DNA of 34,337 nt from a virus, in the IMG/VR virus record IMGVR_UViG_3300020195_000103, positions 1-34,337 of that record, one strand, 5' to 3'. Of this stretch, positions 2,461 to 29,027 are shown one piece after another (positions within the stretch are counted from its first letter, which is position 1; each line of letters opens with the position of its first letter). A model generated the notes under the pieces. The model did no database searches. It saw nothing but the letters and a program-made list of their open reading frames with translations, and had not been told where the DNA came from. A program made the translations under genes and the position numbers.

Positions 2461-4074
2461 TTATTCTTCCATCCCGAGAATGCGGCTGATGACGTCGGGG
2501 TTCTTGGCGATGATCGCGGCTTCGAGGACGCGGACCATTTCTTCCGCCCCGCGAGGTATGTCCATGTCCCATGTAGCGCGTGCGGCGCGAGGGAATTTTC
2601 TTTCGTCTTCGTCTTCGTCTTCGTCTTCGCCATCGACAGGCTCAGCATCCTCGTCGAGGGGGTCCTCGCCGGGCGCGAGCTGCTGCGGCGGTGGCGCAGG
2701 CTTCGAGAGCTCCTGCTGCTCCGGCGTCAGCGGCGTCATCTCATACCACTTGTCGCGGATCTCGGCGTTCGTGAACACGCCGCCCTCCTGCGTCTTCGTG
2801 CTAGCCCAGGACACAGCACCCGCCATGCGTTCTGTTTCTGTGAGCGCCTGAATGTTCGGCCAGCGCACAGTATATTCGCGTGGACCCTTCTTTGGCTCAG
2901 GCAAATAGCCATACGCAATGAGACGCTCGACGAGGCGCCGCATGATGTAGGGGCCAGCATAGCCCTTCTGCCTGCCGACGATCTGGTCGCGCCAGTTCTC
3001 GCGATCCTGCGATGACGCCAGCTCGCCCATCTCTGACCCGGTGAGAATGCGCTTCGGAATCCCCTTCGTGCCCGCGATCTGTGTGAGAATTCCCTCGGCC
3101 GAGGGCGTGAAGTCAGAGACATCGGACCCGAGTGGCGTAGCGGTAACGCCTCGCGTGCGCAGCCAGCGTGTCATCTGGTGCTTGTAGGACTCGGATTGCG
3201 CTTTCAGCGCCTCGACCTGGTTCTTTGCGTCCTCGAGGGCTAGGTCCTTATCGATATCGAGGTGCATGCCTTGGTTTGCACGCAGCCAATACGCCTCGCT
3301 GCCGCCCCCGGTGACCTTGTCGAGGTCGTCGAGCAAATTCCACACCGCTTCCAGCGAGGGGATGCCGAACACCTCGTTCTGCAAACAGCCCTCAGCGATG
3401 TGAATGATGCGCGACCAATGCACGCGGGGTTGCACGCCGTGCGTTGTATCAGCCCCATGCAACTGATAGTACAGCGGCATCGCATAGCGCTCGCTGGCGA
3501 TGTCTGTGTCGTATTCCAGAACGCTGATCGCTGCGTCAAGACCGATTGTGCTGACCGCCCTGCGACTCGTGGTCTCGAGGACGCCACCGCCACCACCAAG
3601 ATAGGGCTGTAGAAACAGCAGCTTGTCGGGCGAGCCCTTCGGAAGCTCCTCGTCTAGCTTTCCCGCCGCGCCAATCAGCAGGACTGCATACGTGCTTAGC
3701 CCCGCGAGCGTATCAACGCGCCGCAGCTTTGCCTGTATCTGGTGCTTGATATCGAGATCATCCCACGTCTGCTCGAACGCGGTCGAGACCTCAGGGTCTT
3801 CATCCTCGATTAGCTCGACCTCGCCACGCCAAGTCGCGTTTGGGAACACGTCAACAATACGCTTTGACAGTCCTCCGCGTGCATAGCGGTCGCAGAACCC
3901 CGCCGTCGAGAGATCGCGGTCGTAGCCGAGCACGGCGTAAAGATCACGAGCGCCGTTGAAGGTCACTCCGGCCTCGCGCAAACGCCGGATGATGTCGAGG
4001 GGGTTAGCAGCCGCAGCGCGGTGGACCATCTCTCGAGGGGCGACAAGCGAGCGGAGGGTGTCTAGTAGGGCCAT
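2461..4074 (-). CDS. Portal protein (DUF1073-like)
   Basis: The 537-residue protein has the hallmarks of the DUF1073 group of phage portal proteins: FNGARDLYAVLGYDRDL near residue 38, then a Tyr/Arg/Gly-rich stretch (DRYARGGLSKRIVD), a Trp-centred motif, and a long central region with SYKHQM and GIPKRILTGSE. The portal ring sits at the capsid vertex and is the channel for DNA packaging and ejection. Length and position directly downstream of the terminase large subunit are as expected. The C terminus carries an acidic DE repeat encoded by four CGTCTT hexamers on the plus strand (2604-2627), a short satellite that could vary in length. Three bases separate it from the terminase stop. Confidence 0.85.
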   Translation of the reverse strand: MALLDTLRSLVAPREMVHRAAAANPLDIIRRLREAGVTFNGARDLYAVLGYDRDLSTAGFCDRYARGGLSKRIVDVFPNATWRGEVELIEDEDPEVSTAFEQTWDDLDIKHQIQAKLRRVDTLAGLSTYAVLLIGAAGKLDEELPKGSPDKLLFLQPYLGGGGGVLETTSRRAVSTIGLDAAISVLEYDTDIASERYAMPLYYQLHGADTTHGVQPRVHWSRIIHIAEGCLQNEVFGIPSLEAVWNLLDDLDKVTGGGSEAYWLRANQGMHLDIDKDLALEDAKNQVEALKAQSESYKHQMTRWLRTRGVTATPLGSDVSDFTPSAEGILTQIAGTKGIPKRILTGSEMGELASSQDRENWRDQIVGRQKGYAGPYIMRRLVERLIAYGYLPEPKKGPREYTVRWPNIQALTETERMAGAVSWASTKTQEGGVFTNAEIRDKWYEMTPLTPEQQELSKPAPPPQQLAPGEDPLDEDAEPVDGEDEDEDEDERKFPRAARATWDMDIPRGAEEMVRVLEAAIIAKNPDVISRILGMEE

Positions 4075-4077
4075 TGG

Positions 4078-5328
4078 TTACCAGACCGCAAAGCCGCCGG
4101 TTTCGCGGCGTAGTTTCTCGACGCTATAGCGGAGAGAATCAATGACGTGGTTTTTCTTGTCTTCGAGCACCGGCGTCACGAGCCCTGTGAGCTTGTCTTT
4201 GATGAAGCTGTACAGCGTCAGTTCGTCGACAGTATGCACGCAGCGTGGGTGCACGACGATGTCGAAATTCTGAAGAAAGATCACGCCCTCTTTGACGCTG
4301 TCTTTCCCCTTCGTCGCAGCGACCATCTTCGGGAATCCATGCCGCTGGAGATAGGAAATAGTCTCAGGGCGTGCGCTATCGGCGGTGATTGTCCAGTCGC
4401 GTGCGCCGGGGACCTGGTCGAACAACGCGGGTAGGTGGTCAACCTCGACGCCAATGCGGTAGGCTTCCTGGTCGATATAGAGCGTCCGGCCTACCGCATA
4501 GCAGCGCACAAGCACGCTCGGGTCGACGCTGAAGCCCCAGTCTGCTCCGTAGAGGAACACCACGGTAGGCTGCCCGTCCGCGCCGACGCTCGCCTTAGGG
4601 CTCTCGAAGGCGTCAACTTTCCAGTTCTTGAAGACGCGGGCTTCGGACTTACTGAGGTACGCGCCGTTCCAGATATGCTGAAACTTCTCTGGGTCGCGAC
4701 GGCGGTCATACGCAATTTCGTCGCTCAGCGTTTTCGGCAGCCAGGGGTTGTCTTCAAACGAGGTGCGCACTACAACGGAATCGGGCGGTGGACCGTCGGG
4801 ACCCCTGAAAAATTTGTCAACAGGGTTTTCAGGCGACTCAGGGTTCCAGCTAAAGTACAGCTCCGAGCCCTCTTTGCGGATCGTCGGACGCAGCAGATCG
4901 AGCGAGTTCTGCGACAGCGCAGCCGCCTCCTCTACCCACGCAATATCAATTCCCTCGAGCGAGCGCACTGAATCGGAGGTGTGCTGCTGCATGCCGATGA
5001 AAAGGATCGTGCCCGACCCCTTCACAGCGCGGATCTCAGACTCTCTGCTCTCGAAAAGATACCCGACATCGAGGGCCTTGATGCGGTTTTCGATGAGGTT
5101 TTTGACGCTCTGCTTCAGGCTCTTCTGAATTTCACGCACGCACACAACACGCAAATCAGGGTCCATGACCATGCGTTCGATAATCATGTCCGCAAAGCAC
5201 CAACTCTTCGTGCCGCCGCGACCACCATAGGCTGCCTTGTACCTCGCGGGCGCGAGAAGCGGCAGCATGACCCGTGGGGTCTCTATGCGCAGCTTCCTTG
5301 CGTCGGTGGTGGCAGCGGTGGCGTTCAT
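4078..5328 (-). CDS. terL: Terminase large subunit
   Basis: This is a 416-residue packaging motor. The N-terminal ATPase shows a Walker A variant (YGGRGGTKSW, about residue 33), then a Walker B with its catalytic acids (DIAWVEEAAAL, about 128) and a coupling motif (LYFSWNPESP). The C-terminal RNase H-fold nuclease has the three expected acidic positions: GADWGF (about 263), TADSARP (about 315) and HVIDSLRY (about 394). This order and length fit the PBSX-type terminases, which translocate DNA through the portal and cut it. The portal gene follows immediately and a TerS candidate lies upstream. Confidence 0.9.
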   Translation of the reverse strand: MNATAATTDARKLRIETPRVMLPLLAPARYKAAYGGRGGTKSWCFADMIIERMVMDPDLRVVCVREIQKSLKQSVKNLIENRIKALDVGYLFESRESEIRAVKGSGTILFIGMQQHTSDSVRSLEGIDIAWVEEAAALSQNSLDLLRPTIRKEGSELYFSWNPESPENPVDKFFRGPDGPPPDSVVVRTSFEDNPWLPKTLSDEIAYDRRRDPEKFQHIWNGAYLSKSEARVFKNWKVDAFESPKASVGADGQPTVVFLYGADWGFSVDPSVLVRCYAVGRTLYIDQEAYRIGVEVDHLPALFDQVPGARDWTITADSARPETISYLQRHGFPKMVAATKGKDSVKEGVIFLQNFDIVVHPRCVHTVDELTLYSFIKDKLTGLVTPVLEDKKNHVIDSLRYSVEKLRRETGGFAVW

Positions 5329-5665: not shown

Positions 5666-6190
5666 TCATGGACGAGTCCCAGAATGTTGTTCGCTACGCT
5701 TCGCATTACGCGCTGCAACGCCGAGCATGGCGATCTCGCGGCGACGTTCTGGGGTTTGGCTCGCTGCACGAGCTTTGCCGGCTGCGCGCTGTCTTATTGT
5801 GCCAGAATTCTCAGGGGTTTCACTAGCCGGCAAGTAGCGGTCAAGCGGAGCTAACCAGCCGGCTAGTTGGGTCAGCTCTATGGCTGAGTCGGGCTTACTA
5901 GCCAGCAAGTTAGCCACTGACTTGCTGGCTAGTTGAGCCATCTCAACAGTAGCCTTTGGGTTACTAGCCAGCAAGTTAGAGACCCCAGCAGCCAACAAGC
6001 CGGCTAGTAAGCCCGAGTGCCGGAACCGGGGCCGGCTACTAGCCGGCTGGTTAGCTTCAAGCCCGGCAGCCGGGGCCGGCTCAGCCGTAGCCGGGTCCGG
6101 AACGGCAAGAGAAACGAGAGACGCGGTCATCGCGTCTACTTCACGCAGATGCGCAAGAGCCTCTCCGAGAGATTGGAAGTTTTCGGCCAT
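5666..6190 (-). CDS. Repeat-containing paralogue of the TerS-like protein N terminus
   Basis: The product has 174 residues. It begins MAENFQSLGEALAHL, which closely resembles MAEKFQSLADLLG of the gene just upstream, so the two share an N-terminal module. The centre repeats LLASNPKATVEMAQLAS and LLASKPDSAIELTQLAG, encoded by DNA repeats built on CTAGCCAGCAAGTTAG. The C terminus (TPERRREIAMLGVAARNAKRS) is basic. The start overlaps the upstream stop as TAATG. After the TGA at 5666-5668 the same frame stays open to a TAA at 5537-5539, so a longer ancestral product with an internal stop is possible. The 5505-5665 stretch otherwise holds only two tiny minus frames. The role is unknown; packaging accessory is a guess from context. 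Confidence 0.65.
   Translation of the reverse strand: MAENFQSLGEALAHLREVDAMTASLVSLAVPDPATAEPAPAAGLEANQPASSRPRFRHSGLLAGLLAAGVSNLLASNPKATVEMAQLASKSVANLLASKPDSAIELTQLAGWLAPLDRYLPASETPENSGTIRQRAAGKARAASQTPERRREIAMLGVAARNAKRSEQHSGTRP
5898..5932. repeat. Inverted repeat inside the repeat-rich gene
   Basis: CTAGCCAGCAAGT (5898-5910) is followed after 9 bases by its exact reverse complement ACTTGCTGGCTAG (5920-5932). The left-arm sequence recurs in direct orientation at 5964-5979 as CTAGCCAGCAAGTTAG, and related CTAGCCGGC and CCGGCTAG forms occur at 5825, 5868, 6000 and 6037. The result is a cluster of direct and inverted copies within a coding region, able to form a stable hairpin in the mRNA. Confidence 0.8.
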
Positions 6191-6546
6191 TATTGGACCG
6201 TATACGCCTTTTCTTCGCCCTGCTGTTGCTGCGGCCGTGCGTCGATAATCACGCGCTCGATGACCGTAACGATCGGACCGCCGTCAGGGGCAGAATGCAC
6301 GATGCGCTCGACCGGCTTACCCCAGCCGTAATCCATCAGCCTGCAAATGATCGCCGAAGGGAGCTCGCCGAGTGTGAGACCGTTGATAATGTAGCTGCGA
6401 AAGACTTGCGAATTCAAGATCTTCGACGCAAAGTCTTCCGCCGTGGTCGGCTCGGAGAGGGAGTCTAACAGCTGAGGTGGCTCAGGTTCAGCAGAATTCT
6501 GGCCAGTTCCGAGGAGATCCGCAAGGGATTGGAACTTTTCCGCCAT
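6190..6546 (-). CDS. Probable terminase small subunit / conserved phage packaging protein
   Basis: The product has 118 residues from the ATG at 6546; an upstream in-frame TTG at 6558 is an alternative. After a short MAEKFQSL head and a disordered Pro/Glu/Ser stretch comes a compact helical region (FASKILNSQVFRSYIINGLTLGELPSAIICRLMDYGWGKP) followed by a beta-hairpin-like tail (VERIVHSAP...VTVIERVIID). This core, ending in the YGWGKPVERI signature, recurs in phage proteins encoded next to terminases and is often annotated as small terminase. TerS binds the packaging site and loads TerL. It is the first gene of the minus-strand structural operon, behind tandem promoters. The TerS identity is inferred from position. 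Confidence 0.6.
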   Translation of the reverse strand: MAEKFQSLADLLGTGQNSAEPEPPQLLDSLSEPTTAEDFASKILNSQVFRSYIINGLTLGELPSAIICRLMDYGWGKPVERIVHSAPDGGPIVTVIERVIIDARPQQQQGEEKAYTVQ

Positions 6547-6557
6547 AGCCGTGAGCA

Positions 6558-6587
6558 AGTTTAGCTTTTCTTGGACCCGCGTGTCTA
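6558..6587 (-). promoter_or_regulatory. Candidate promoter proximal to TerS-like gene
   Basis: On the minus strand, TAGACA (plus 6582-6587), an 18-bp spacer and TAAACT (plus 6558-6563) resemble a sigma70-type promoter, with the ATG at 6546 only 11 bases beyond the -10. It is the innermost of three TAGACA elements facing the structural operon. The spacer differs by one from the other copies, so this is the weakest of the three. Confidence 0.4.
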
Positions 6588-6590
6588 GAA

Positions 6591-6625
6591 GAAAACGACT
6601 AGCATAGACTGAAACTTTTGTCTAG
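6591..6625 (-). promoter_or_regulatory. Promoter-like repeat, copy 1
   Basis: Minus-strand TAGACA (plus 6619-6624), 17-bp spacer and TAGTCG (plus 6596-6601) lie in a 35-bp block that is repeated almost perfectly at 6664-6698. It also contains CTAGAC...GTCTA, an imperfect dyad. It points toward the structural operon, and the leader to the ATG at 6546 is about 44 bases. The spacing matches the plus-strand promoters of this genome, but the -10 is a poor match to TATAAT, so it may need an activator or an altered polymerase. Confidence 0.5.
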
Positions 6626-6663
6626 TTTTTTGTTTCGGTACGAGGTGGAAGAAAAGTCCAGAG

Positions 6664-6698
6664 GAAAATGACTAGCATAGACTGAAACTTTTGTCTAG
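6664..6698 (-). promoter_or_regulatory. Promoter-like repeat, copy 2
   Basis: This is the second copy of the 35-bp block, differing at one base from copy 1 and offset by exactly 73 bp. Minus-strand TAGACA is at plus 6692-6697, and the -10-like TAGTCA is at plus 6669-6674 after a 17-bp spacer. A run of ten Gs (6708-6717) lies immediately upstream with respect to its direction of transcription. Confidence 0.5.
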
Positions 6699-6743
6699 CC
6701 TTGTTTTGGGGGGGGGGCTTCGGGTCCGGGTGGCCGAGGTGCG

Positions 6744-7046
6744 GATTACAGTGATTACAATTGAGATTACAGAGGTTTGCTCTGGATTCCTTAAGCTTCC
6801 TACAGTTGTAATCTAGTAATCTATGTAATCTCTATTTCTCTTAGAGTTACTACAAGGGATGGACTACAACATTCCTATGTAGGTCTGGGATACCCGGGTT
6901 ACAGATTTACAAGATTACACCAGACCTAACTCTAACAAACTAAACCACTTAGCCTGTAATTACACTGCATCAACGGAGATTACACCCTCGGTAACTGTGC
7001 CATTTCTGTACATTGTAATCTTGTAATCTCCTAAACAGCGATTACA
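6744..7046. repeat. GATTACA iteron cluster: candidate replication origin or late-operon control region
   Basis: Ten exact GATTACA heptamers occur within about 300 bp. Plus orientation: 6744, 6753, 6765, 6913, 6978 and 7040. Minus orientation, as TGTAATC: 6807, 6824, 7014 and 7022. Several one-mismatch copies lie between (for example 6815, 6955). The stretch has no coding frame and is clearly more AT-rich than its surroundings. It lies between the 3' end of the primase-helicase gene and the tandem promoters of the structural operon. Clustered short repeats beside a replication initiator are typical of iteron origins. Equally, an activator or repressor could bind here to control the late promoters. 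Confidence 0.65.
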
Positions 7047-7055
7047 AGAGGCTTC

Positions 7056-9173
7056 CTAAAACGGTATATCGTCGATTCCTCCCTTCCTCCCTCCACTATT
7101 CCCCTCATCATCTCCATCATCATCTCCAACCTCGCGGTCAGGCTCTCGATCCATTTGATTCGCCTGCATCAGTGCAGGATCACCGATATGTACTGAGATC
7201 CACCCGCCTTTGACTTTATCGTCCTCACGGACTGTGATTTTCCGAAACCCAAGACGCGTCATCACATCAGAGAACGTCCGATATTGCCGCGTCCGATCTT
7301 TCAACTCGATACCAAGCGCCGTCCACAACACTTCAGATGAAAGACGTCGTCTCCCACCAAGCACAGGTTGTGCAATAAGCACCTCGCGTACTAAGTCCTG
7401 AAACACGTTTTCTTCATTACGGCGCGACTGCTCTTCCCCAGCCACAGGCCAGAGTTTCTCTGGAAGCCGTATCGAAACACCTTTCGTCTCGTAGTGCACA
7501 GCCTCAGCCCACAGCTGGTCGCGGATCTCACGCAGCTTCACGACGTCAAACGCCTTAATGCGTATCGGCCAGAACCGTCGGCTCCCACTCGGGTCACCGA
7601 GATAGTCGTCGCTGTTCGTTGTGCCGACGATGATAAACTCCCGCGGCTTATTGATTGGCGTATGCGCGTAGGCGAGACGTGCGCGGTCAGTCTGTCGCGA
7701 TAGCATTGATTTTAAGTGCTCACGCTCAGCTCTACGACCAACTAACTCAGAGGCTTCGATGATCCACTTCCCACTCGTCGCCTCAATAACGCGTTGCCCG
7801 TCTGCATTCAGCGGGAAGTCATCAGAGAACCAATTCTCGTGAGGACAGAGAGTGCGGAGCGCTGTCGATTTGTTCAGACCCTGCGCGTGACTCTCAAGCA
7901 CAACCATCTCGTCATACTTACACCCAGGTTGTGTGATACGTCGTACTGCCGCAATGAGCATGATTGCACTGACCGCACGGATGTATTCAGTGTTCTCAGT
8001 GCCTGCGGTTTCGACTAACCAAGTCTCGATCCTCGGCGTCTTATCCCATGTCAAACTACCGAGGTAGTCTTTGATGGGATGAAAGCGATTCTCGTAGCAG
8101 AGATAGTCGATGGATTCGTAGAGGTATTCCTTTGGCGGCTGAAAACGATGCGTGATTTCAATCTTGAACCGAATCTCTCTGAACAGGTCTGTCGTCATTT
8201 CCTGCCCATTGATGAGCGACGTACCAGAGAACATGTCGTAGGTCGTCGTATAGTTGAGCAACTCGACGGCACGTTGGATGTTACCAACATCAGACGCGAT
8301 GATCGAGCCTTTCTCGTTCATCACAAACCCGTCTTGCCCAAGCCACTCTCGGATACGCCGGGTGACATCTTTCCCTTGGTCGCCGATGAATTTTTCAAGT
8401 GACGGCCCGCCAGCAGTTTTCTTACCTTTCGTCGCGAGCGAGTCAACTGTTGATTCAACAACCCCTCGAACGTCCCCTATTTCTGTGTTGTTGCAAACGA
8501 GCGACATCGCATTGCCCATCGCGATAAGATCTTCAGCACTGATGCCTGCGCGTAAAAGGAACCCTGCCCAGGACAAACGTACCGCATGCCCGAAGCCATT
8601 ACGCCCGAGATGCAACGCGAGAATCATTCCGATGGCTGCAAGACACGTGCGGTCTTTGAGTATCTGCGCGGCTGAAAGGTGTGCCGGCACGCCGTTTAAC
8701 ACAAACGCAAGAGGTTCTTGCTTCGTATCTTTCTGCCAGATAGATGGCGGCGCCATCGACTGATGCTTATCAGCACGAAACTCAATCAGTGTGACAGGGT
8801 TTTTTCCAATGTCTTTGTAGACCTGCATCGGCACGACATCTGGTGCTGTGTAAAGGCAATGACTAATCTGTTTCGACGTACGTCCCCAGACCATACCTGT
8901 TACAGGCAACATTGCTTTGGCGATTACAGCCCCTGGTGCCCAGTCAATATCGACATCGATGAGATACTTGCCGACAGACACCTCGACACCATGCATGATG
9001 CCGACGCGGTCACCGTCTTTGTATTTGTCAAGCGTGTAGTCGCCGGCGATACCCTTTTTCAGCCAGTCGGCTTCGCGTGGACCTTTCCAGTCATCAATCG
9101 CAGGCCAGAAGACGAGGTGGAACCCTCGATCTAAGTATGATTCGACCACCTCACGAGCGCCTGGCAGCGTCAC
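7056..9173 (-). CDS. Primase-polymerase / superfamily 3-like helicase (VirE-type)
   Basis: About 705 residues from a GTG at 9173 that overlaps the upstream stop as GTGA; an ATG at 9215 is the alternative start. The N-terminal third matches a bifunctional primase-polymerase domain: the metal-binding pair in YLIDVDIDW, then SHCLYT and the strand IEFRADKHQ followed by PPS. The C-terminal half is a Virulence-associated E / D5-like ATPase: Walker A in QGLNKSTALR, a Walker B-like WIIEASEL, and the sensor region FIIVGTTNSDDYLGDPSGSRRFWP. Such fusions prime and unwind DNA for phage or plasmid replication. The C terminus is a low-complexity Asp/Gly tail. The iteron cluster directly follows the gene, which suggests it acts at that origin. 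Confidence 0.85.
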   Translation of the reverse strand: MTLPGAREVVESYLDRGFHLVFWPAIDDWKGPREADWLKKGIAGDYTLDKYKDGDRVGIMHGVEVSVGKYLIDVDIDWAPGAVIAKAMLPVTGMVWGRTSKQISHCLYTAPDVVPMQVYKDIGKNPVTLIEFRADKHQSMAPPSIWQKDTKQEPLAFVLNGVPAHLSAAQILKDRTCLAAIGMILALHLGRNGFGHAVRLSWAGFLLRAGISAEDLIAMGNAMSLVCNNTEIGDVRGVVESTVDSLATKGKKTAGGPSLEKFIGDQGKDVTRRIREWLGQDGFVMNEKGSIIASDVGNIQRAVELLNYTTTYDMFSGTSLINGQEMTTDLFREIRFKIEITHRFQPPKEYLYESIDYLCYENRFHPIKDYLGSLTWDKTPRIETWLVETAGTENTEYIRAVSAIMLIAAVRRITQPGCKYDEMVVLESHAQGLNKSTALRTLCPHENWFSDDFPLNADGQRVIEATSGKWIIEASELVGRRAEREHLKSMLSRQTDRARLAYAHTPINKPREFIIVGTTNSDDYLGDPSGSRRFWPIRIKAFDVVKLREIRDQLWAEAVHYETKGVSIRLPEKLWPVAGEEQSRRNEENVFQDLVREVLIAQPVLGGRRRLSSEVLWTALGIELKDRTRQYRTFSDVMTRLGFRKITVREDDKVKGGWISVHIGDPALMQANQMDREPDREVGDDDGDDEGNSGGRKGGIDDIPF

Positions 9174-9394
9174 GCTACCCGCCCCCGCTTTTGCTGCGCA
9201 CGCATCTGGCGCCACTCACGGTGCGCGACGATAACCAACTTGCGTTGTTCTGGGAGCCCCTCGTAGCGCTGTAAAAAAACGCACAACTTACACATCTCGC
9301 GAGGGAAGAACTTGTCTTTCATCGCATAACGGGCGAATAGGCCGACAGCATCGGTGCGCGTGGTTTGCTTACGCAACCACTCGTAAAATGTCAT
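9170..9394 (-). CDS. YozE/SAM-like small protein
   Basis: The product has 74 residues. The N terminus MTFYEWLRKQ...DAVGLFARYAMKDKFFPR closely follows the pattern of the YozE SAM-like (UPF0346) fold: a short helical bundle starting MTFYEWL, with an acidic/Phe-Pro turn. The C terminus (REWRQMRAQQKRGR) is basic. It is the first gene of the primase operon and overlaps the primase start by four bases. YozE-like proteins have no firm function; nucleic-acid binding is plausible from the basic tail. Confidence 0.7.
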   Translation of the reverse strand: MTFYEWLRKQTTRTDAVGLFARYAMKDKFFPREMCKLCVFLQRYEGLPEQRKLVIVAHREWRQMRAQQKRGRVA

Positions 9395-9402
9395 GGGGAT
9401 CC

Positions 9403-9431
9403 AATAAAAAGAGGACTTGGCTCGTTGTCAA
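9403..9431 (-). promoter_or_regulatory. Promoter of the primase operon
   Basis: On the minus strand a perfect TTGACA (plus 9426-9431), a 17-bp spacer and TTTATT (plus 9403-9408) precede the ATG at 9394. Only 8 bases separate the -10 from the start codon, so the transcript would begin within a base or two of the ATG. It is divergent from the plus-strand promoter at 9609. Confidence 0.6.
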
Positions 9432-9608
9432 CAGTTTGGAGGTCTGTTAACAAAGACTTTGGTGTGCGAGCGGTATCAGAGCTAGGGTAGCCAGATATCG
9501 CTCGAACCAAGCCGTAGAGAGAAGCTGCCAGTATAGCAGCGTACGAGAGGTCTAGCTAGTAGTTTTAACTGCTACTGTTTAAAGCACTTACGGGTTTCCA
9601 AGAAATAC
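9432..9608. other. Divergent intergenic region
   Basis: The stretch between the two divergent promoters has no coding frame that I can support. It contains a short dyad around GTAGTTTTAACTGCTAC (9560-9576) and AT-rich patches that could be regulator binding sites. It probably controls the switch between the minus-strand replication genes and the plus-strand early genes. Confidence 0.4.
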
Positions 9609-9637
9609 TAGACTTTCTTTTCAATGCGTGCTACACT
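9609..9637 (+). promoter_or_regulatory. Early promoter, leaderless type (copy 1)
   Basis: TAGACT (9609-9614), 17-bp spacer, TACACT (9632-9637), six bases, then ATG at 9644. The geometry is identical to five other plus-strand promoters here, and the spacer shares CTTTTCA and GTGC. With usual start-site spacing, transcription would begin at the A of the ATG. Confidence 0.75.
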
Positions 9638-9643
9638 CTACCC

Positions 9644-10764
9644 ATGACTCACCTCCCACTCCACCCCGATGACATTCTCTTGTTCACTGAAATCACCGAC
9701 GTCATGCGGCGCGTCGCGAAGCACTACGCGCTTCCGCTTCAGACGATCGAAGCACTGCAGATGCCCACGCAGGGCATGGCAAACCGCCTTGGTGAGTGCA
9801 CACACACACCGGCATCATCCGCCTCGTGATGCGCGCTACTGTTGACGGACAGTTTGTCGATGCGCCGCGGACGCCAGAAGATGTGTGGAGAACCGCTGCG
9901 CATGAGCTTGCGCATCTCAGGCACATGAACCATGGACTCGGATTTCAAACTTTCGAGCTCGAGATGCAACAGGCCGTCGCAAACATGCGTATAGACCACC
10001 GACAGAAAGTCATCGATAGGTTGTTGAAGATGCAGGCCAGCCGCGACGGTGAAGCACACCTCGGGAACGAAGCAGCTGCCGAAGCTTTCGCCGCTGCTTT
10101 CAACCGCATGATGCTCCAACACGAGCTCAGCCAGAGCGACTTGGATTACGCGAAGAATACGGACAACGACCCCATCGTCCAAATACTCGTGGATCTTTCA
10201 CGCTATCGTATCGAGGAGAAAAAGTCACGCATTGCGTGGCAAGAGACGCTCGCAAGCGTCGTCGCGCACGCGCATCTCTGCAAGTTCCTTATCCGCCCAG
10301 GCTCGAACTGCATCACCTTCGTCGGGACAAAGGCTCACGCTACTGTCGCCGAATATGTATATGGCACGCTCGTGCCGGCGGCCGTCGTGCTCTGTAACAA
10401 GGCGTATGGAGAATACGGGAAGGAATCGATTGCTGAGACCGGGAAGTGGCAAGTCAAAACACCGGGATTCAAGGAAAGCTGGACAACCGCCTTCATTCAG
10501 CGACTCGCCGAACGCTTTGAGGAAACAAAACAGACTGCAGTCGAGGAAGTCAGCATCGGTAGCAGCCTCGCTCTTGTGCGACTTGGTGGAGCGTTAGCAA
10601 AGGTGCAACACTATATCGACGACAAGTTCAAGAGCCGCGGTGCAAGTCCGCTTCAGCGTATCAGAGGTTTTCACACAGAAGGACAGCGACGCGGCCGCGC
10701 TGCTGCGGATGCCATGACTATCGGTCGGCGCGGTCTGGAGAGTGCACAGAAAATGTTACGCTAG
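9644..10764 (+). pseudogene. Zinc metallopeptidase (SprT/WLM-like), split by a (CA)5 frameshift
   Basis: Two overlapping frames make one protein. Frame one (9644-9829) gives about 50 good residues ending MANRLGEC and then runs out of frame. Frame two continues from about 9799 to 10764 with TGIIRLVMR, then the zinc-binding site AAHELAHLRHMNHGLGF (HExxH plus a downstream His). The switch falls in a CACACACACA tract at 9799-9808. Removing one CA gives GECTHTGIIRL, an uninterrupted family-like sequence of about 370 residues. The gene could be a length variant, subject to frameshifting, or a base-calling indel. The C-terminal two-thirds (residues after about 130) has no recognised domain and ends in a basic tail. 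A GTG at 9796 could start an N-truncated product. The gene is driven by a leaderless-type promoter. Confidence 0.7.
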
Positions 10765-14622: not shown

Positions 14623-14677
14623 TAGTTTCCTTCTCGCTAGAACAGCGGGACCCCCGAAGTCGTGCAAGGAGTATTTG

Positions 14678-17600
14678 ATGTCTGATGAAGAGGAGCTGTT
14701 ACCTGGTACAGAGGACCAGCCAGCATTGTTTGACATCGATCCAAGCTGGAAGGCTACCTGGCAAGGGATGCCTGACTATTCGCATCAAGACCTGATGCCG
14801 AATACAACGTTACTTGTGCACTTCAAGACCGTCGCAGATCGAGAAGCATTTTCGAGACTTATCAACCAGCAACTAACACCGCGCACAAAGTTCATCTGGC
14901 ACCCGCAGGCTACCATCAATCACGCGGCTGAGAAAGTCTACACATCCTCGAAGGTATATACTCCGCGCTATCCGCTCTACATCATCAGTAAGAGCAGGTG
15001 GGAGTCGAGGTTGACGGCGAAGTGTTTCGAGTGGATTAAGGTGCCGTACTACATTGTCATTGAGCCGCAGGAATACGAGCAATACGCCGCGGTGATCGAT
15101 CCCTCCAAAATCCTCGTCACACCCTTCAGTAACCTCGGCCAGGGCGGCATTCCAGCACGAAATTTTTGCTGGGAACACGCCATCGCAAGCGGTGCTGCGA
15201 GACACTGGATTTTTGACGACAACATTTCGGGATTCTGCCGCTTTCAGGACAACGTCAAAGTTGAAGTCGATTCAGCTATCACGATCTGCGCCATAGAAGA
15301 CTGGGTCGACCGCTACGAAAACCTTGCGCTCGCCGCACACAATTATGACTACTTTGCACCACGAAAGCAGGGCGCAAAGATCAAGCCGATCACGATGAAC
15401 ACGCGTTGCTACAGTAACCTGCTCATCGATAACGCACTCCCATACCGCTGGAGAGGGCGCTATAACGAAGATACGGACCTCTCGCTGCGTGTGCTGAAAG
15501 ACGGTCTTGACTTACGCGATGCTGGCCGTGGAGGCAACTACGCGACAGCCCTCTTCAATGCCTTTCTTGTCTACAAGACACCCACATTGACAATGAAGGG
15601 CGGGAATACCGATCACCTCTACGCTGGCGCCGAGGCTGTTACCGCAGAGTGGGGCGCGCACACTACAGCCTGTAATGTATGTACGATCGACGCGACGGCA
15701 CGGTGTGAAGACGGACGCACGATCCTCGCGAAAGACGGTCGGTGGCTGATGGCTGATTCGCTTGCCGAACAGCATCCAGACTGCACGACGATTGAACGAA
15801 AATGGGGACGCTGGCAGCACAGCGTCGACTACCGTCTTTTTCGGAACAACGCGCTCATCATTCGTCCAAATGTTGTCATCTCAGATGTATCTGATTATGA
15901 GATGACGTTGGATGCAATGCCTAATGGGTGGGGCTCGATGAGCGCGTCTCCAGCTCCAGCTCCAGCTCCAGCTCCAGCTCCAGCTCCAGCTCCAGCTCCA
16001 GCTCCAGCTCCAGCGACAACACAGCCAGTCGCAATCTCTTCAGGTCCCTCGGCCCTCGATTTTCTCTCGGATTCCCGTCCTACTGTTGAGATAGCAAAAC
16101 CCCTGTCCCCAGCCCCAGGAGCCGCGGCTCCCGCCCTGGTAGAGGAAGCCCTCGACAGCATAGAAAACTCAGCCCTAGGCCGGCCAGAGAGCCGCCCAGC
16201 GCTCTCTGGCCAGGATGTGTTACTGGCTGACGCCAAGATGTTGAAGCGAGACCTCGAGCGCCGCGGGCATCGCCTTGTCATACGCGACGGACGCTTGTTT
16301 ATCGTGAGTGATAATTCAAGCGCGTTGACCGATACAGAGCGTGCTTCGGTTAAGTCGATGAAGGAAATACTGTTGACGATGGCTGATGCTGTCGTACCGT
16401 GCTCGTGGTGCGGAAAAGTGCACGACGGTGGACCAGAACAGTGCCAGCCAACCGCCACAGTGCCATTTCAATCACTTGCAAGTTTTCTTGACACTGTTTC
16501 TACAAGCCACGTCGAAGTTACACCTGATGCTCCACCTGACCTCACCGGCATTGATCACATCATTCTCAACTTCGCCACCTCGGGCCTTAACTGGGCGCAC
16601 GGGCACAGACCCGTCGGCGTAACAATCGCAACACCTGATGGCGGGCTTGTGCGCTTCCTTCCCTTCGCGTTCAAGGGTGGAGGCAACCTTGATGAGGCCA
16701 TTATCAAGCGTTGGATGCAGGAACAGGTGCGCGGCAAGAAGATCACGAACTCAAAGACGAAGTTCGATATCCACCACGCACGTGAGTGGGGCGTAGACCT
16801 CGAGGCGCAGGGCTGCACGTTTTCAGACATACAGCATAGCGCCGCGCTTCTCGACGACCACCGCAAGCGGTTTGCGCTCGACATTCTCGCTGCGGAATAC
16901 CTGAAAGATAGTGTCGGGGTTCCGCGTGTCGACGAAACACGGCACTCGGATTATCACGCCGCCGAGGTGGCTGAACGCGAACGCTACACCGCGCTAACGG
17001 TCGGTAGGTTGCTTGATGTTTTCGCCCCGCAGCTTATCGAGCAGGATTTGCTGAGGGTCCAGGCCCTCGAGGATTCGGTCATTCCATCCGTCGTTGAAAT
17101 GGAGAAGAACGGGGCCCTCATCGACGTCGAGCTCCTCGAGCGCTACAGCCGTGAATGCACCGTCAGACACGGCGAACTGATGCGCGAGATTATCGAGGAG
17201 GCTGGGTTCGCATTCGATCATACGTCGAAAGCGTGGCAGCGTCTGTTCGAGAAGTGCAATCTAGTGCTTGGCGACAGCCATGCGGAAAGTGTCGTCGGCG
17301 TTGTTGAGCACCCGCTTATCAAGAAAGCGTTTTTCGCTGGGCAAATCGCTTCCCTAAATAGCAAGACATTCGCAGCCTACCGCAGCAAGCTTGACGGCGA
17401 CGTGCTACGGTTTGAGATTAACCAGCTTCGCGGCGACGAGGGCGGCACCGTGTCGGGCCGCTTCAGCATTGGCTACGTGCAGCAGGTTCCAAACTACGAT
17501 AATCATTCATCCGTATTCGGCGATGAGTGGTTTCCGAGGAGTCTCTTTGTTCCGCGTAGCGGGTGTTATCTCGAGGCCGACGCGGCACAGATTGAATACC

Positions 17601-18319
17601 GGCTGTTTGCCCACTTTGCCGGCAACGCCAAGGTGCTTGCTTCATACAAGGAGGACCCCGGTCTATCATTCCACAAGATGACGTGGGAGATGATGAAGCA
17701 ATACAAAGCAGATATGCTTTACGGGCATCAGAAAAATTTCAACTTCGCCCGGCAGTACGGCGCACGCTCCGTGAAGCTTGCTATCATGATGAAATTTATC
17801 ACGCAGGCAGAGGGCGATGAGATACGCGCTGCGAGCCGTTGGAACGACCCTCGGCTCAAGCAGATTCACGAGATCGAGGCGGCATACAAGCAGATGATGC
17901 CGGAGGGCGAGGAGCTACTTGACCGAGCGTCGCATCTCGCAAAACCTGAGTGCGACAAATACTGCCGGAAGAGTGATAAATTCCACAGAGAAAAGCTTCC
18001 ACACCGGGGCTATGTCAAGACGATCATCGGCCGACGCTCGCGATTCCCTACTAGCTACAAGACCTACATCGGTCTCAACCGCGTGCTCCAGGGTAGCGGT
18101 GCAGACATTATGAAGCAGAAGCTCGTCGAGCTTCACAATGCGCGCAAGGATACCGGGTTTCTTATGCGCATGACGGTCCACGATGCTGTAGGTGGCGATG
18201 CTCAGCAACCCGAGACTCTTGAGCGCGTTAAGACAATCCTGAACGAGCAATCTTTTCCACTGCGTGTACCGGTTATCTGGGAGTGCGGCGAGGGGAAGAA
18301 CTGGGCGGAGGCGAAGTGA
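14678..18319 (+). CDS. TAGT-type DNA glycosyltransferase fused to family A DNA polymerase
   Basis: The product has 1,213 residues; ATG at 14678 with AAGGAG six bases upstream. Residues 1-400 match the TET-associated glycosyltransferase (TAGT) group: YPLYIISKSRWESRLT, YIVIEPQEYEQY, LGQGGIPARNFCWE and HWIFDDNISGF (DDN). Such enzymes add sugars to hydroxymethylated pyrimidines in phage DNA. An Ala-Pro hinge (424-446) follows, then a TubC-like docking segment (about 515-565) and a Cys site (CSWCGK...EQC). Next is a 3'-5' exonuclease fold whose first motif reads LNFATSGL instead of DxE, so proofreading is probably lost. The polymerase has motif A (DAAQIEYR, about 964), motif B (KNFNFARQYG, about 1018) and motif C (VHDAV, about 1168, with Ala replacing the usual Glu). 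The start and end overlap no other gene except a GTGA overlap at the 3' end. Confidence 0.85.
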   Translation: MSDEEELLPGTEDQPALFDIDPSWKATWQGMPDYSHQDLMPNTTLLVHFKTVADREAFSRLINQQLTPRTKFIWHPQATINHAAEKVYTSSKVYTPRYPLYIISKSRWESRLTAKCFEWIKVPYYIVIEPQEYEQYAAVIDPSKILVTPFSNLGQGGIPARNFCWEHAIASGAARHWIFDDNISGFCRFQDNVKVEVDSAITICAIEDWVDRYENLALAAHNYDYFAPRKQGAKIKPITMNTRCYSNLLIDNALPYRWRGRYNEDTDLSLRVLKDGLDLRDAGRGGNYATALFNAFLVYKTPTLTMKGGNTDHLYAGAEAVTAEWGAHTTACNVCTIDATARCEDGRTILAKDGRWLMADSLAEQHPDCTTIERKWGRWQHSVDYRLFRNNALIIRPNVVISDVSDYEMTLDAMPNGWGSMSASPAPAPAPAPAPAPAPAPAPAPATTQPVAISSGPSALDFLSDSRPTVEIAKPLSPAPGAAAPALVEEALDSIENSALGRPESRPALSGQDVLLADAKMLKRDLERRGHRLVIRDGRLFIVSDNSSALTDTERASVKSMKEILLTMADAVVPCSWCGKVHDGGPEQCQPTATVPFQSLASFLDTVSTSHVEVTPDAPPDLTGIDHIILNFATSGLNWAHGHRPVGVTIATPDGGLVRFLPFAFKGGGNLDEAIIKRWMQEQVRGKKITNSKTKFDIHHAREWGVDLEAQGCTFSDIQHSAALLDDHRKRFALDILAAEYLKDSVGVPRVDETRHSDYHAAEVAERERYTALTVGRLLDVFAPQLIEQDLLRVQALEDSVIPSVVEMEKNGALIDVELLERYSRECTVRHGELMREIIEEAGFAFDHTSKAWQRLFEKCNLVLGDSHAESVVGVVEHPLIKKAFFAGQIASLNSKTFAAYRSKLDGDVLRFEINQLRGDEGGTVSGRFSIGYVQQVPNYDNHSSVFGDEWFPRSLFVPRSGCYLEADAAQIEYRLFAHFAGNAKVLASYKEDPGLSFHKMTWEMMKQYKADMLYGHQKNFNFARQYGARSVKLAIMMKFITQAEGDEIRAASRWNDPRLKQIHEIEAAYKQMMPEGEELLDRASHLAKPECDKYCRKSDKFHREKLPHRGYVKTIIGRRSRFPTSYKTYIGLNRVLQGSGADIMKQKLVELHNARKDTGFLMRMTVHDAVGGDAQQPETLERVKTILNEQSFPLRVPVIWECGEGKNWAEAK
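15948..16013 (+). repeat. (CTCCAG)11 hexanucleotide tandem repeat
   Basis: Eleven perfect CTCCAG units encode alternating Ala and Pro in the linker between the glycosyltransferase and polymerase domains. The length is a multiple of three, so unit gain or loss changes linker length without shifting the frame. Confidence 0.9.
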
Positions 18320-18714
18320 GCAAACGCGAAGGCGTGCTGAAGGCATCGTTGAAGGAAGCCATCGAACGTGCGCTGCCGCACTTCGTGGTCATCTCTCACA
18401 CAGATATCGCGAGTGGGATTCCAGATTGGTCGATTACCGGCAACGGCATTACGTCATGGTTGGAATTGAAGCACGCGACGCCGGAGTTCACCTCGCGAGG
18501 TATTCAAGTGGTCACAGCTTCCCGCCTCGCCGCCGCGGGGCACTGTCGGTATCTTGTTTTCTGGGAGCGTAGCATAAACAACAAGCGCACGTGCATCGTA
18601 CATCCGGGAAGCGTGGTCTTCGGGCGTAATGCAACGACGAAGTCAGAACTATTCAGTGACGGTCATGACAATGAATTCGTGATCGACTATTTGCGCAAGG
18701 TGCACCGCGTATGA
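18316..18714 (+). CDS. PD-(D/E)XK (VRR-NUC-like) nuclease
   Basis: The product has 132 residues from a GTG at 18316 that overlaps the polymerase stop as GTGA; upstream in-frame starts lie inside the polymerase gene. The active-site pattern is clear: SGIPDWSI (Asp), WLELKHA (E-x-K) about 16 residues later, and GIQVVTASRLAAAGHCRYLVFWE (Gln plus helix). This order is that of VRR-NUC and related Holliday-junction or structure-specific nucleases. In a replication operon it probably processes branched DNA. Confidence 0.75.
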   Translation: MSKREGVLKASLKEAIERALPHFVVISHTDIASGIPDWSITGNGITSWLELKHATPEFTSRGIQVVTASRLAAAGHCRYLVFWERSINNKRTCIVHPGSVVFGRNATTKSELFSDGHDNEFVIDYLRKVHRV

Positions 18715-19259
18715 ACGAACCCTTTCGCGTTCTCTGCGCAGACCCTCCGTGGCCATTCAGAGACAAGCTGCCAGGCAAGAACCGAGGAGCAGCAAGTAAC
18801 TACCCGCTGCTGTCGATCCGAGACCTTTGCCGGCTTCCTCTGCCGCCGCTAGCAGATGATTGCGTGCTGTTTATGTGGCGTGTCGCATCGATGCAGTCCG
18901 AGGCACTACGCGTAATCGATGCGTGGGGCTTTGACCAACCGCAGCGCGAGGTCGTGTGGCTCAAGAAAACCTCGAACGGCAATCGTTGGTTTGGGATGGG
19001 CCGTGTTGTGCGCGCAGAGCACGAAATTTGCTTGATCGCAATGCGCGGTCGTCCGATTGTCAAGAGCCACTCTGTTCGCTCGACATTTGTGACTGACGTC
19101 GACCTTGAAGGGATTAGTGCTATTGTCGGAAAACATTCAGCGAAACCAGAGACTTTTTATGGTATAATCGAGACATTGTTCGACGGGCCGTATTGCGAAT
19201 TATTTGCCCGTCGACAGCGCCCCGGTTGGACGTGTTTAGGGAATGAGGCGAACGGATGA
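18711..19259 (+). CDS. MT-A70-family adenine methyltransferase
   Basis: The 182-residue protein opens with FRVLCADPPWPF, the DPPW catalytic motif of MT-A70 N6-adenine methyltransferases. It continues with ASNYPLLSIRDLCRLPLPPLADDCVLFMW, then WLKK and FGMGRVVRAEHE, and ends with KPETFYGIIETLFDGPYCELFARRQRPGW, the expected SAM-binding end. It probably methylates adenine in phage DNA to block host restriction, or marks DNA for regulation. Both ends overlap neighbours by four bases (ATGA), so it is translationally coupled to the nuclease and clamp genes. Confidence 0.9.
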   Translation: MNEPFRVLCADPPWPFRDKLPGKNRGAASNYPLLSIRDLCRLPLPPLADDCVLFMWRVASMQSEALRVIDAWGFDQPQREVVWLKKTSNGNRWFGMGRVVRAEHEICLIAMRGRPIVKSHSVRSTFVTDVDLEGISAIVGKHSAKPETFYGIIETLFDGPYCELFARRQRPGWTCLGNEANG

Positions 19260-20329
19260 ATGTCGTTGTAAACTCGCAACACTTGGCTGCAGAACTGCGA
19301 CTGCTGAATAAGATCGTCCCCTCAAAGCCAGTGATTCCCATCCTCAGTCACGTGCTTTTCACTGCTGATGAGGAGCTGACGCTATATGCGACCGATCTCG
19401 AATGTGGTTTGTCAACGCAGTGTCAGGCGCGCATCGATCAACCTGGTTCACTCGCGTTGCCTATAGCGAAACTGCTCGCGATGGTTGAGCAGTTTTCTGA
19501 TGCTGACGTGACAATCTCTCTAGAGCACAAGCAAGTCATGATCCGCTGCGGCACCTTCAAGTCGCGTCTTCAGTCACAAGCAGTTCAGGATTTTCCTATT
19601 CAGCATGCTATCGAGGGCGAGACATACACACTCGATGCAATGTCTTTCAACGGGCTCATCAACAAAGTCCGTCACGCCACTTCGGCGGTTGCAAAACAGC
19701 ATATCCTTCAGGGAGCACTGCTGAAACTGACTGAAAGCGGTGCTGCAATGGTGGCAACTGATGGGACACGCATGGTGCTTGCAACAACAGCATATGCAGG
19801 ACCAGAACTCCAAGTCGTAATCCCCACAAAGACGATGGACCTCCTTGATGGACATCTTGGTGCTGGCACAGTAGAGGCAACAATCGGTCCACGACACTTG
19901 TTTTTTTCTCTCAACAACAGACTTCTCACGTCACGCACACTCGAGGGCAAATATCCTGCCTACGAACGCATGGTGCCACGCGATAACGCGAACAAGGTGC
20001 AGTTTGAGAGAGTAATGCTGACGGCAGCGTTGCGCCGCGTCATTCTCGCCGCTGAAGAAAACAGTGCAGTGTATTTCAACTTCACTGAAGGAAATCTCGA
20101 GTTGTACTCGGCGAGTGTCGGCGTCGGGTCTGCTGATGAAACGTTGCCAGTTCACTACGAAGGACCTCCGTTAAAGGTTTGCATGAACGGCAAATACGTT
20201 CTTGACTTCCTCGAGATTGCAACCGGTCAAACGGTTGTGTTGTTGTTGAAGGACGCAATGACGGCTGCGTTGTTTCAAGATGGCACAAACTGCCTGAGTG
20301 TAATCATGTTGATGCGAGGGACCTCATGA
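19256..20329 (+). CDS. dnaN: DNA polymerase III beta sliding clamp homologue
   Basis: The product has 357 residues, close to the bacterial length of about 366. The three-domain clamp pattern is visible: VNSQHLAAELRLLNKIVPSKPVIPILSHVLF at the N terminus, FKSRLQSQAVQDFPIQ near residue 105, GTRMVLATT near 170, and a C-terminal GKYVLDFLEIA...LSVIMLMR. The clamp encircles DNA and holds polymerase. A phage clamp beside a family A polymerase is unusual, since most clamp users are C- or B-family enzymes. Its GAGG site precedes the ATG. Confidence 0.9.
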   Translation: MNVVVNSQHLAAELRLLNKIVPSKPVIPILSHVLFTADEELTLYATDLECGLSTQCQARIDQPGSLALPIAKLLAMVEQFSDADVTISLEHKQVMIRCGTFKSRLQSQAVQDFPIQHAIEGETYTLDAMSFNGLINKVRHATSAVAKQHILQGALLKLTESGAAMVATDGTRMVLATTAYAGPELQVVIPTKTMDLLDGHLGAGTVEATIGPRHLFFSLNNRLLTSRTLEGKYPAYERMVPRDNANKVQFERVMLTAALRRVILAAEENSAVYFNFTEGNLELYSASVGVGSADETLPVHYEGPPLKVCMNGKYVLDFLEIATGQTVVLLLKDAMTAALFQDGTNCLSVIMLMRGTS

Positions 20330-27304: not shown

Positions 27305-28339
27305 ATGTCACTAAACCCACTGAAAACCAGCATCGCCGTCGAGCAGGATGCGCTCTGCGCCCTGAGCGGCGAGCCACTCGCCATCGACCCGTCGCTCAAT
27401 GATCCAGATCGCATTACGCCCAAGGCGAAGGGTGGCACCTACACGCGCAAGAACACGCGGGTGGTCACGCCGTTGGCCCACATGGCGCATCACGGCATCC
27501 TGCGGACGCGCACGGAGGCGCTTGACGGCCTCAAGTCGCTCTTCGATGACCGCGTGCAGATGATGAAGCTGCTGCTGAAGGAGAACAACCAACTCCAAGC
27601 ATACAAGCGCCGCATCGACCATCAGCACCCGGAGACCGCCGCGTTCCTCGAGGCGCATCTGCAACCCATCGAGGCGCGGATCGCGCTCATCGACAAGGCG
27701 CTCACGGCAGCCATCAAGTCCTACCCCGATGCGTTCGTCAGAGCGGCGATTGCCGTCAAGGGGCTCGGCCCCATCACGGTCGCGGCGCTCACGGCCTACG
27801 TCGATCTAGAGAAGGCGCCGACGCCGTCGTCCCTCTGGCAGTATGTCGGCCTGGACCGGCCGTCGCACGAGCGCTACGAGAAGAATCCGGCGCAGCAGAC
27901 GCGGCGGGTGGCGCGTGGGCCGGCTTTCTACAGTGTCCCCTCGCGGCATGACGATGACCCGCAGGTGCCGACGGGCTGGGGCGGAAACAAGGTGCTGCGC
28001 ACGGTGTTGTGGAACAGCGCCAATGTGATGATGAAGTTGGGCGAAGGCGGCTACCGGGACGTCTACGACAGGACGAAGCTGCGCCTGAGCGTGTCGGAGA
28101 AGGTCGTGAAGACACGCAACACGGCTGGCGCGCTGGTGGAGTGCGCGTGGAAGGACACGAAGCCGTCGCATCGGCACGGCGCGGCGTTGCGGGCGGTCAT
28201 GAAGCATCTGCTGGCGGACTACTGGATGGTGGGCCGCACGATGGCGGGGCTGCGGACGACGCCGCTCTACGCCGAGGCGATGCTCGGGCACGCGCACATC
28301 ATCGCGCCGAAAGAACGAGGTTGGGCGTTCGAGGGGTAG
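27305..28339 (+). CDS. tasH: HNH plus Nop/IS110-like RNA-guided nuclease (TasH-type)
   Basis: The product has 344 residues; ATG at 27305 with GAGGA five bases upstream. Residues 1-64 look like an HNH finger: ALCALSGEPL, then DRITPKAKGGTYTRKN and AHMAHHG (Asp35/Arg36, Asn50, His59, His62, His63; the usual first His is Arg36). Residues about 75-145 are long helices. Residues 152-183 (KGLGPITVAALTAYVDL...SSLWQYVGL) and about 230-320 (GWGGNKVLRTVLWNSANVMMK, then SHRHGAALRAVMKHLLADYW) match the Nop/Transposase_20 region of IS110 transposases and the TIGR-Tas proteins. The RuvC-like DEDD domain of IS110 is absent. A 36-bp periodic array starts at the stop codon. Together these fit TasH of TIGR-Tas, which uses two short spacers to guide DNA cleavage. 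Naming is by analogy. Confidence 0.8.
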   Translation: MSLNPLKTSIAVEQDALCALSGEPLAIDPSLNDPDRITPKAKGGTYTRKNTRVVTPLAHMAHHGILRTRTEALDGLKSLFDDRVQMMKLLLKENNQLQAYKRRIDHQHPETAAFLEAHLQPIEARIALIDKALTAAIKSYPDAFVRAAIAVKGLGPITVAALTAYVDLEKAPTPSSLWQYVGLDRPSHERYEKNPAQQTRRVARGPAFYSVPSRHDDDPQVPTGWGGNKVLRTVLWNSANVMMKLGEGGYRDVYDRTKLRLSVSEKVVKTRNTAGALVECAWKDTKPSHRHGAALRAVMKHLLADYWMVGRTMAGLRTTPLYAEAMLGHAHIIAPKERGWAFEG

Positions 28340-28342
28340 CCA

Positions 28343-29027
28343 CCAGGTTCAAGAAACCCAAAAACGAAAAGCGAGCCACATCAGCCTAGAAACCCAAAGA
28401 CCTGAAGCGAGCCACGACACCTAAGAAACCCAATGTGAGCAAGCGAGCCATTGTCTAGTAGAAACCCACGGAGCCAAAGCGAGCCAAGCTTCGCAAGAAA
28501 CCCAACGAACGCAAGCGAGTCAGCAGAACGAAGAAACCTATTGATTGCAAGCGAGCCACACCCGCGGAGAAACCTATCACCCTTTAGCGGGCCATCCTTC
28601 GGTAGAAACCCAACAAGTGGAAGCGAGCCACGCCAGATAAGAAATCCAATGATGGCAAGCGAGCCCAGTCAATGCGTTGAATACGCCCAAGGTAGAGAAG
28701 CGAGTCATCAAGCAGTAATCCAGCGGCCGCTAGCGAGCCAGAAGCAGAAAGAAACCCACCAGCCAAAGCGAGCCAATGGCCTCTAGAAACCCATCACGCC
28801 CAAGCGAGCCACGCCAGATAAGAAACCCAATGAGGGGAAGCGAGTCATGAGGCAGTAGAAACCCAGTGGCCGCTAGCGAGCCAGAAGCAGAAAGAAACCC
28901 ACCAGTCCTTAGCGAGTCAGGCATCGCAAGAAACCCACGAGCGCGAAGCGAGTCAGGCGCCGATAAAAACCCACTAGGCGTAAGCGAGCCAGCGACTTAT
29001 AGAAACCCACCCCCTGGAAGCGTCTCA
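28343..29027 (+). repeat. TIGR-like guide array (36-bp period, about 19 units)
   Basis: Each unit is AGAAACCCA, 9 variable bases, AGCGAGCCA (or AGCGAGTCA), 9 variable bases. AGAAACCCA starts at 28352, 28388, 28424, 28460, 28496, 28532, 28568, 28604 and 28640. After two degenerate units (about 28681 and 28714) it resumes at 28750, 28785, 28821, 28857, 28893, 28929, 28965 and 29001. AGCGAG boxes follow each by 18 bases (for example 28370, 28803, 28983). A decayed box (GGGTAGCCA, 28334) overlaps the nuclease stop and a last one (AGCGTCTCA, 29019) closes the array. In the TIGR-Tas family, as I recall, the processed guide RNA is 36 nt with two 9-nt spacers. There is no CRISPR-like long repeat. Confidence 0.85.

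Follow-up and report, generated by a model that had tools for sequence, protein, structure and literature searches.

We have analyzed a cluster of short repeats in a virus record of 34,337 bases, the whole of which is called the window here. The repeats are copies of the heptamer GATTACA between positions 6744 and 7046, next to the gene for the phage's own primase-helicase. We consider it quite probable that they form the iteron part of a replication origin, or of a combined ori/crr element, used by that protein. A first-pass annotation had proposed an origin at this position, and comparison gives the proposal good support: arrays are found 3′ of such genes across the family, their words co-vary with the winged helix of the initiator, and the arrangement matches P4 crr and the origins of SaPIs and PICIs. 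Replication origins are mostly unknown in uncultured phages, and the reading places this one within 300 bp.

The GATTACA array and its setting

The ten exact heptamers of the first-pass annotation, six on the + strand and four on the − strand, are all found in 6744–7046, and the array extends to at least four near copies beyond them. Three + copies, starting at 6744, 6753 and 6765 and thus 9 and 12 bp apart, make up a first group (6744–6771). A second group (6807–6830, − strand), inverted with respect to the first, has exact copies at 6807 and 6824; the near copy AGTAATC at 6815, with one mismatch, lies 8–9 bp from these neighbors and provides a third tandem copy. The third group (6897–6919, +) consists of the near copies GGTTACA at 6897 and GATTTACA at 6904, followed by GATTACA at 6913. 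A palindromic near copy, TGTAATTACA, occupies 6955–6964. Beyond it are a lone iteron (6978–6984, +), a pair at 7014 and 7022, 8 bp apart (7014–7028, −), and a last copy (7040–7046, +) that is the nearest to the primase-helicase stop codon (7056–7058), at a distance of 10 bp. Same-orientation neighbors inside a group are separated by 8–12 bp, and the fuller iteron motif is aGATTACA.

Such an array is far from a chance occurrence, as had been supposed. Only two further sites, at 8922 (+) and 20299 (−), are present in the 34 kb, where 1.8 copies are expected in total; 12 copies were reached in none of 100 dinucleotide shuffles. In 2000 first-order shuffles of 6559–7055 no 7-mer of any sequence was present in more than seven copies. 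The description of the DNA as AT-rich and non-coding also holds. The iteron clusters contain 25–33% GC, compared with about 58% for the record, and the 497-bp gap between the primase-helicase stop (7056) and position 6558, where the leftward operon begins, contains no ORF of 60 aa or longer. Of all 300-bp stretches of the record, the one from 6744 is the least stable (nearest-neighbor energy −1.248; mean −1.514, sd 0.062), making 6744–7043 a candidate melting region.

The array does adjoin the primase-helicase gene, but the earlier wording of its location needs mending: it is on the 3′ side of that gene, and the primase-helicase and the structural operon are both transcribed leftward. The order on the − strand is primase-helicase, gap, the first ORF of the operon (6190–6558), another ORF, the terminase large subunit TerL (4078–5328; assigned by Pfam and PHROG profiles) and portal (2461–4074). 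No repeats were found near the start of the primase gene (9216–9800). In the cumulative GC skew there is a slight local peak near 6.7 kb, and a wide trough near 17 kb; the curve does not mark the site. The two HTH-like ORFs (20326 and 31606) that had been named as candidate binding proteins showed no link to the heptamer. The contig has no detectable terminal repeats, and virus records of the linear class are often fragments, so that a further origin could lie outside it.

Several other features of the record were noted. A run of about ten G residues (6706–6717) separates the iterons from a promoter-like repeat considered below. Ten AGCCGGC repeats and seven inverted repeats of ACTAGCC type occur at 5777–6075, just upstream of TerL and inside an ORF of no known family (5666–6190); these could be a packaging or regulatory site. 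At 28352–29009 (+) there are 35 half-units, AGAAACCCA alternating with AGCGAGCC at a near-strict spacing of 18 nt. In the frame that continues past the TAG of ORF 27305–28339 they read RNPxxxSEPxxx, with no interruptions other than TGA codons and a single frame change; this may be a coding repeat that has decayed or been recoded, or else a binding array in non-coding DNA. In a single ORF of 1214 aa (14675–18319, +) a TET-associated glycosyltransferase (TAGT) is fused to a family A DNA polymerase, and 11 copies of CTCCAG lie between the two parts. Together with a methyltransferase-like ORF (18711–19259) it suggests that the DNA is hypermodified. The phage also encodes a DNA polymerase III beta clamp (19256–20329, +).

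The primase-helicase and the arrays of its relatives

The gene at 7056–9215 (−) encodes a 719-aa primase-helicase, a predicted initiator in which a Prim-Pol domain, a VapE-type SF3-like ATPase and a C-terminal winged helix follow one another. The motor is clear from Pfam and PHROG profiles (PF05272, 2.7e-64). The Prim-Pol match is weak (1.9e-4, slightly below the Pfam cut-off), and in an AlphaFold2 model of the full protein (mean pLDDT 84.5) the N-terminus resembles the pRN1 primase-polymerase with Z of 14 (1rni/3m1m). By both sequence and fold the best solved relative is PriRep1 bound to double-stranded DNA (7pds; E 6.8e-64, Z 29.9 over 381 residues).

Residues 604–674 (7194–7406, −) have the helix-strand-helix-helix-hairpin order of a winged helix, also when predicted alone. 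The structural neighbors include many winged-helix DNA-binding proteins (FoxO, MarR and PadR types) at Z of 5.6–6.8, below the level that proves a fold. The isolated model gave no Foldseek match at E ≤ 0.001, and the P4 alpha domain is absent among the matches listed for it, which does not speak against the assignment. From the models, these neighbors and the co-variation described below, the domain is the predicted reader of the iterons. The protein ends in a tail (residues 680–719; 7059–7178, −) that is acidic and, in the model, disordered; its last residues, GGIDDIPF, resemble the C-terminal tip of SSB.

The record has no nucleotide relatives in the phage collection, and comparison was therefore made at the protein level. 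Terminase relatives were unusable as a conservation set, because none of 24 contigs with a terminase about 60% identical carries a match to the studied primase. The nearest primase relatives (36–51% identity) also have arrays at this position, built from related words. The words are GATTACA/ATTACA in L094 (primase 51% identical), GTTACA in L096, CGGTAACA in L095 and L007, and AGTGTAACA in L098. A short contig, L008, carries a VapE winged-helix end with the tail EPEDDTPF, ATTACA iterons, a homologue of ORF 6190–6558 (36% identity) and then TerL (61% identity), i.e., the gene order of the window. The gene order is kept in the relatives with GATTACA-like words (L008 and L094).

The more distant primase relatives L002–L005 have no cluster of GATTACA as such, and we therefore used an unbiased word search, which revealed words of their own. 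L005 has nine copies of GGGACAAG (9048–9292) between the VapE and VRR-NUC/SNF2 genes, and Corynebacterium phage CL31 has eight to nine copies of this word, also between VapE and VRR-NUC/SNF2. Some arrays are displaced by 0.5–3.8 kb from the VapE gene (L002, 12477–12696; L174, 12871–13091; L104, 2102–2395). That of L002 (primase 39% identical) is made of CGGTTACA iterons 2.4 kb from the gene and, like that of L174, still lies between replication and terminase genes.

The linkage was then measured across the family, in 102 VapE-type loci from viral and bacterial contigs with less than 80% identity across the C-terminal 350 residues, by scanning 300-bp windows for over-represented 6–8-mers of any sequence. 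A cluster falls within 300 bp 3′ of the VapE stop at 57 of the 102 loci (56%), compared with 253 of 7098 windows elsewhere (3.6%); the remaining 45 loci have no detectable cluster in the first 300 bp. The difference persists in windows that lack long open frames (14/19 near, 8/113 far), and the family has no second positional peak within 6 kb of the gene. As a control, the detector picked up P4 crr directly 3′ of alpha, at offset 0. Both orientations are present in 56 of 59 strong arrays, with a peak of same-strand spacing at 8–9 bp. Named phages with adjacent arrays are Marinobacter PS3 (GGGGTGACC, seven copies), Corynebacterium CL31 (CGGGACAAG, eight copies) and Caulobacter BL94 (GTTACA, four copies). 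In Ruegeria V11 and Pseudomonas U5 the clusters are 300–600 bp further out, and no clear adjacent array was found in Bacteroides BT401P1 or Rhodobacter RcBigEagle.

The words themselves follow the C-terminal domain. Among the 59 loci, word similarity correlates with winged-helix identity (r = 0.30) and with ATPase identity (r = 0.20). With the ATPase controlled, the partial correlation with the winged helix is 0.229, a value as high being reached in none of 2000 permutations; with the winged helix controlled, that with the ATPase is 0.009 (870 of 2000 permutations). This is indirect evidence from sequence that the iteron word may be read by the winged helix of the initiator, in agreement with SaPI Rep and Cch2, whose C-terminal domains have this role (PMC7581432).

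The tail is also a recurrent feature. A terminal PF, mostly after acidic residues, is present in 24 of the 102 non-redundant VapE-type proteins, compared with 6 of 990 long ORFs from the same loci; examples are DDIPF in the studied phage and L098, EEEIPF in L114 and DAEIPF in L264. The C-terminal motif of E. coli SSB is DDDIPF, which docks many replication proteins including DnaG (PMC5872125), and the phage tip may act in a similar way. Our literature search, of partial coverage, found no report of an SSB-like tip on phage primase-helicases.

Probable origin function and its alternatives

The arrangement is like those of P4 alpha-crr and PICI/SaPI rep-ori, and on this basis we infer a pathway of initiation in which the initiator loads itself. 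The C-terminal winged helix of the 7056–9215 protein would bind aGATTACA, with copies stacked 8–12 bp apart in opposed groups. Binding would load ring helicases onto the duplex in opposite orientations, the SF3-like motor would melt the DNA of the groups and of the stretches between them, which is unusually rich in AT, and the Prim-Pol domain would prime. Replication proteins would then join, the phage providing its own family A polymerase and beta clamp.

P4 itself offers the basis of a different view, in which binding of the primase-helicase to the array would promote or restrain initiation while melting occurs at an origin elsewhere. The crr element of P4 has the same place (directly 3′ of alpha), number (10) and size (300 bp), and P4 has its annotated ori about 4.7 kb from there. 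Yet there is no second GATTACA cluster in the 34-kb record (which may be incomplete), and the family scan gave no other positional peak within 6 kb. The array also falls on the DNA of lowest stability in the record, and its position is that of the functional origin in PICIs (PMC6092414). An accessory or copy-control role of this kind is unlikely, though the likeliest of the alternatives. The pRN1-type origin, in which a large stem-loop and not the heptamers would be recognized, was considered in the light of the stem-loop 3′ of the gene assigned to pRN1 and possibly to Bordetella phage BIP-1, with their AEP primase, SF3 helicase and winged helix (PMC4234260). The array folds somewhat better than shuffled sequences (z of −2.2 and −3.3), but this added pairing is to be expected from inverted iterons. 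The model fits poorly, because no single dominant long stem is predicted on either strand, compared with the stem-loop of about 100 bp of the pRN1 type; moreover the heptamer words are conserved between relatives. We regard such an origin as highly improbable here.

The first-pass annotation had also suggested that the array activates transcription from tandem promoters beyond it. Two 52-bp direct repeats are indeed present between the array and the operon, with a TAGACA-N17-TA pattern directed towards the structural genes (6583–6634, TAGACA-N17-TAGTCG, and 6656–6707, TAGACA-N17-TAGTCA; both −); their promoter character is a consensus match only, and a sigma-70 scan gave one weak match with no excess over shuffles. 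In L094, L096, L099 and L007, all close relatives, the corresponding position also has a promoter-like sequence, as would suit a transcription factor, possibly the initiator itself, that binds GATTACA to activate or repress the leftward promoters. Against this, the genes that follow the 3′ VapE arrays in L005, L204, L178 and CL31 are VRR-NUC nuclease or SNF2 helicase genes and not a late operon or packaging genes, and the words follow the winged helix of the initiator. The activation reading is not supported, and an operator array is quite improbable as the explanation, though the array may serve as both origin and operator. Nor is there much to commend a packaging site of pac or cosB type, bound by the terminase small subunit, in spite of the position of the array upstream of the terminase genes. 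Terminase loci without VapE have upstream clusters at about the background level (23 of 67, with about 18 overlapping windows each, mostly weak, and including L008, a cut VapE-iteron end), L096 keeps its GTTACA iterons beside a terminase of another PHROG family, and some arrays lie away from the terminase. Packaging thus seems a very remote prospect.

An origin read by the primase-helicase remains the preferred interpretation, and it yields a practical rule: look for a repeated word of 6–9 letters right after the gene for a VapE-type primase-helicase. The rule works for about half of a diverse set of relatives. Among those covered are some tractable phages, for example Corynebacterium phage CL31, which grows on the laboratory strain C. 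glutamicum MB001, and Caulobacter phage BL94. Winged helices and iteron words also occur in many natural pairings, from which the recognition rule might be learned. Tentatively, and with less confidence than in the origin itself, we suggest that VapE-type primase-helicases could make up a very large initiator family whose members load themselves, with a C-terminal winged helix that in each of them reads a word of its own at the 3′ end of the gene. On many members an SSB-like tip (xPF; DDIPF here) would dock SSB-binding replication proteins of the host at the origin once it has been melted. Were this the case, sequence would suffice to read the origins of uncultured phages, and the tail would be an unrecognized means of replisome recruitment.

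Comparison with known systems

The type I iterons of the P4 alpha/crr/ori system are closely alike in arrangement: ten short iterons in 300 bp, in both orientations, with 9-bp tandem spacing and directly 3′ of the primase-helicase gene. The P4 iteron GGTGAACA shares G...ACA with aGATTACA. The systems differ in that P4 has a primase of the bacterial TOPRIM type (PMC4234260) whereas that of the studied phage is a Prim-Pol (AEP), that crr is a cis-required element with a separate ori, that the polarity of the opposed groups is reversed, and in the word. The spacings of 9, 12, 42 and 17 bp here resemble 9, 43 and 18 bp in P4, but we do not claim the same geometry because the word polarity is opposite.

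PICI origins directly adjoin the 3′ end of the initiator gene and have an AT-rich region between two iteron sets, as tested by plasmid maintenance (PMC6092414). The SaPI/PICI rep and pri-rep systems share with the studied phage a VapE/primase-helicase initiator, an origin directly 3′ of it and opposed iteron sets with AT-rich DNA (PMC6092414, PMC7581432), and PriRep1 (7pds) is the closest solved relative of the protein. Unlike them, the phage is no satellite, having its own polymerase, clamp, terminase and portal, and it has another word and the SSB-like tail. SCCmec Cch2 likewise has a C-terminal domain that binds short direct repeats (AAGTG iterons) directly downstream of its own gene (PMC7581432), but with a separate primase, only three iterons and a helicase of another subfamily (Primase_Cterm/D5-like). 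ORF904 of the crenarchaeal plasmid pRN1 shares the Prim-Pol fold, SF3-like motor, winged helix and an origin 3′ of the gene, but a stem-loop is required there, not iterons (PMC4234260). Our reading tempers the proposal made in that work, that initiators with an AEP primase, SF3 helicase and winged helix read stem-loops and not iterons.

Most probably, then, the array and its initiator belong to the known P4 crr/ori and SaPI/PICI rep-ori kind. What may be newer is the generality of the arrangement across uncultured phages, and the SSB-like tip (...DDIPF) on many of the initiators. The word itself, the breadth of the arrangement in the family and the tail make this more than a routine case.
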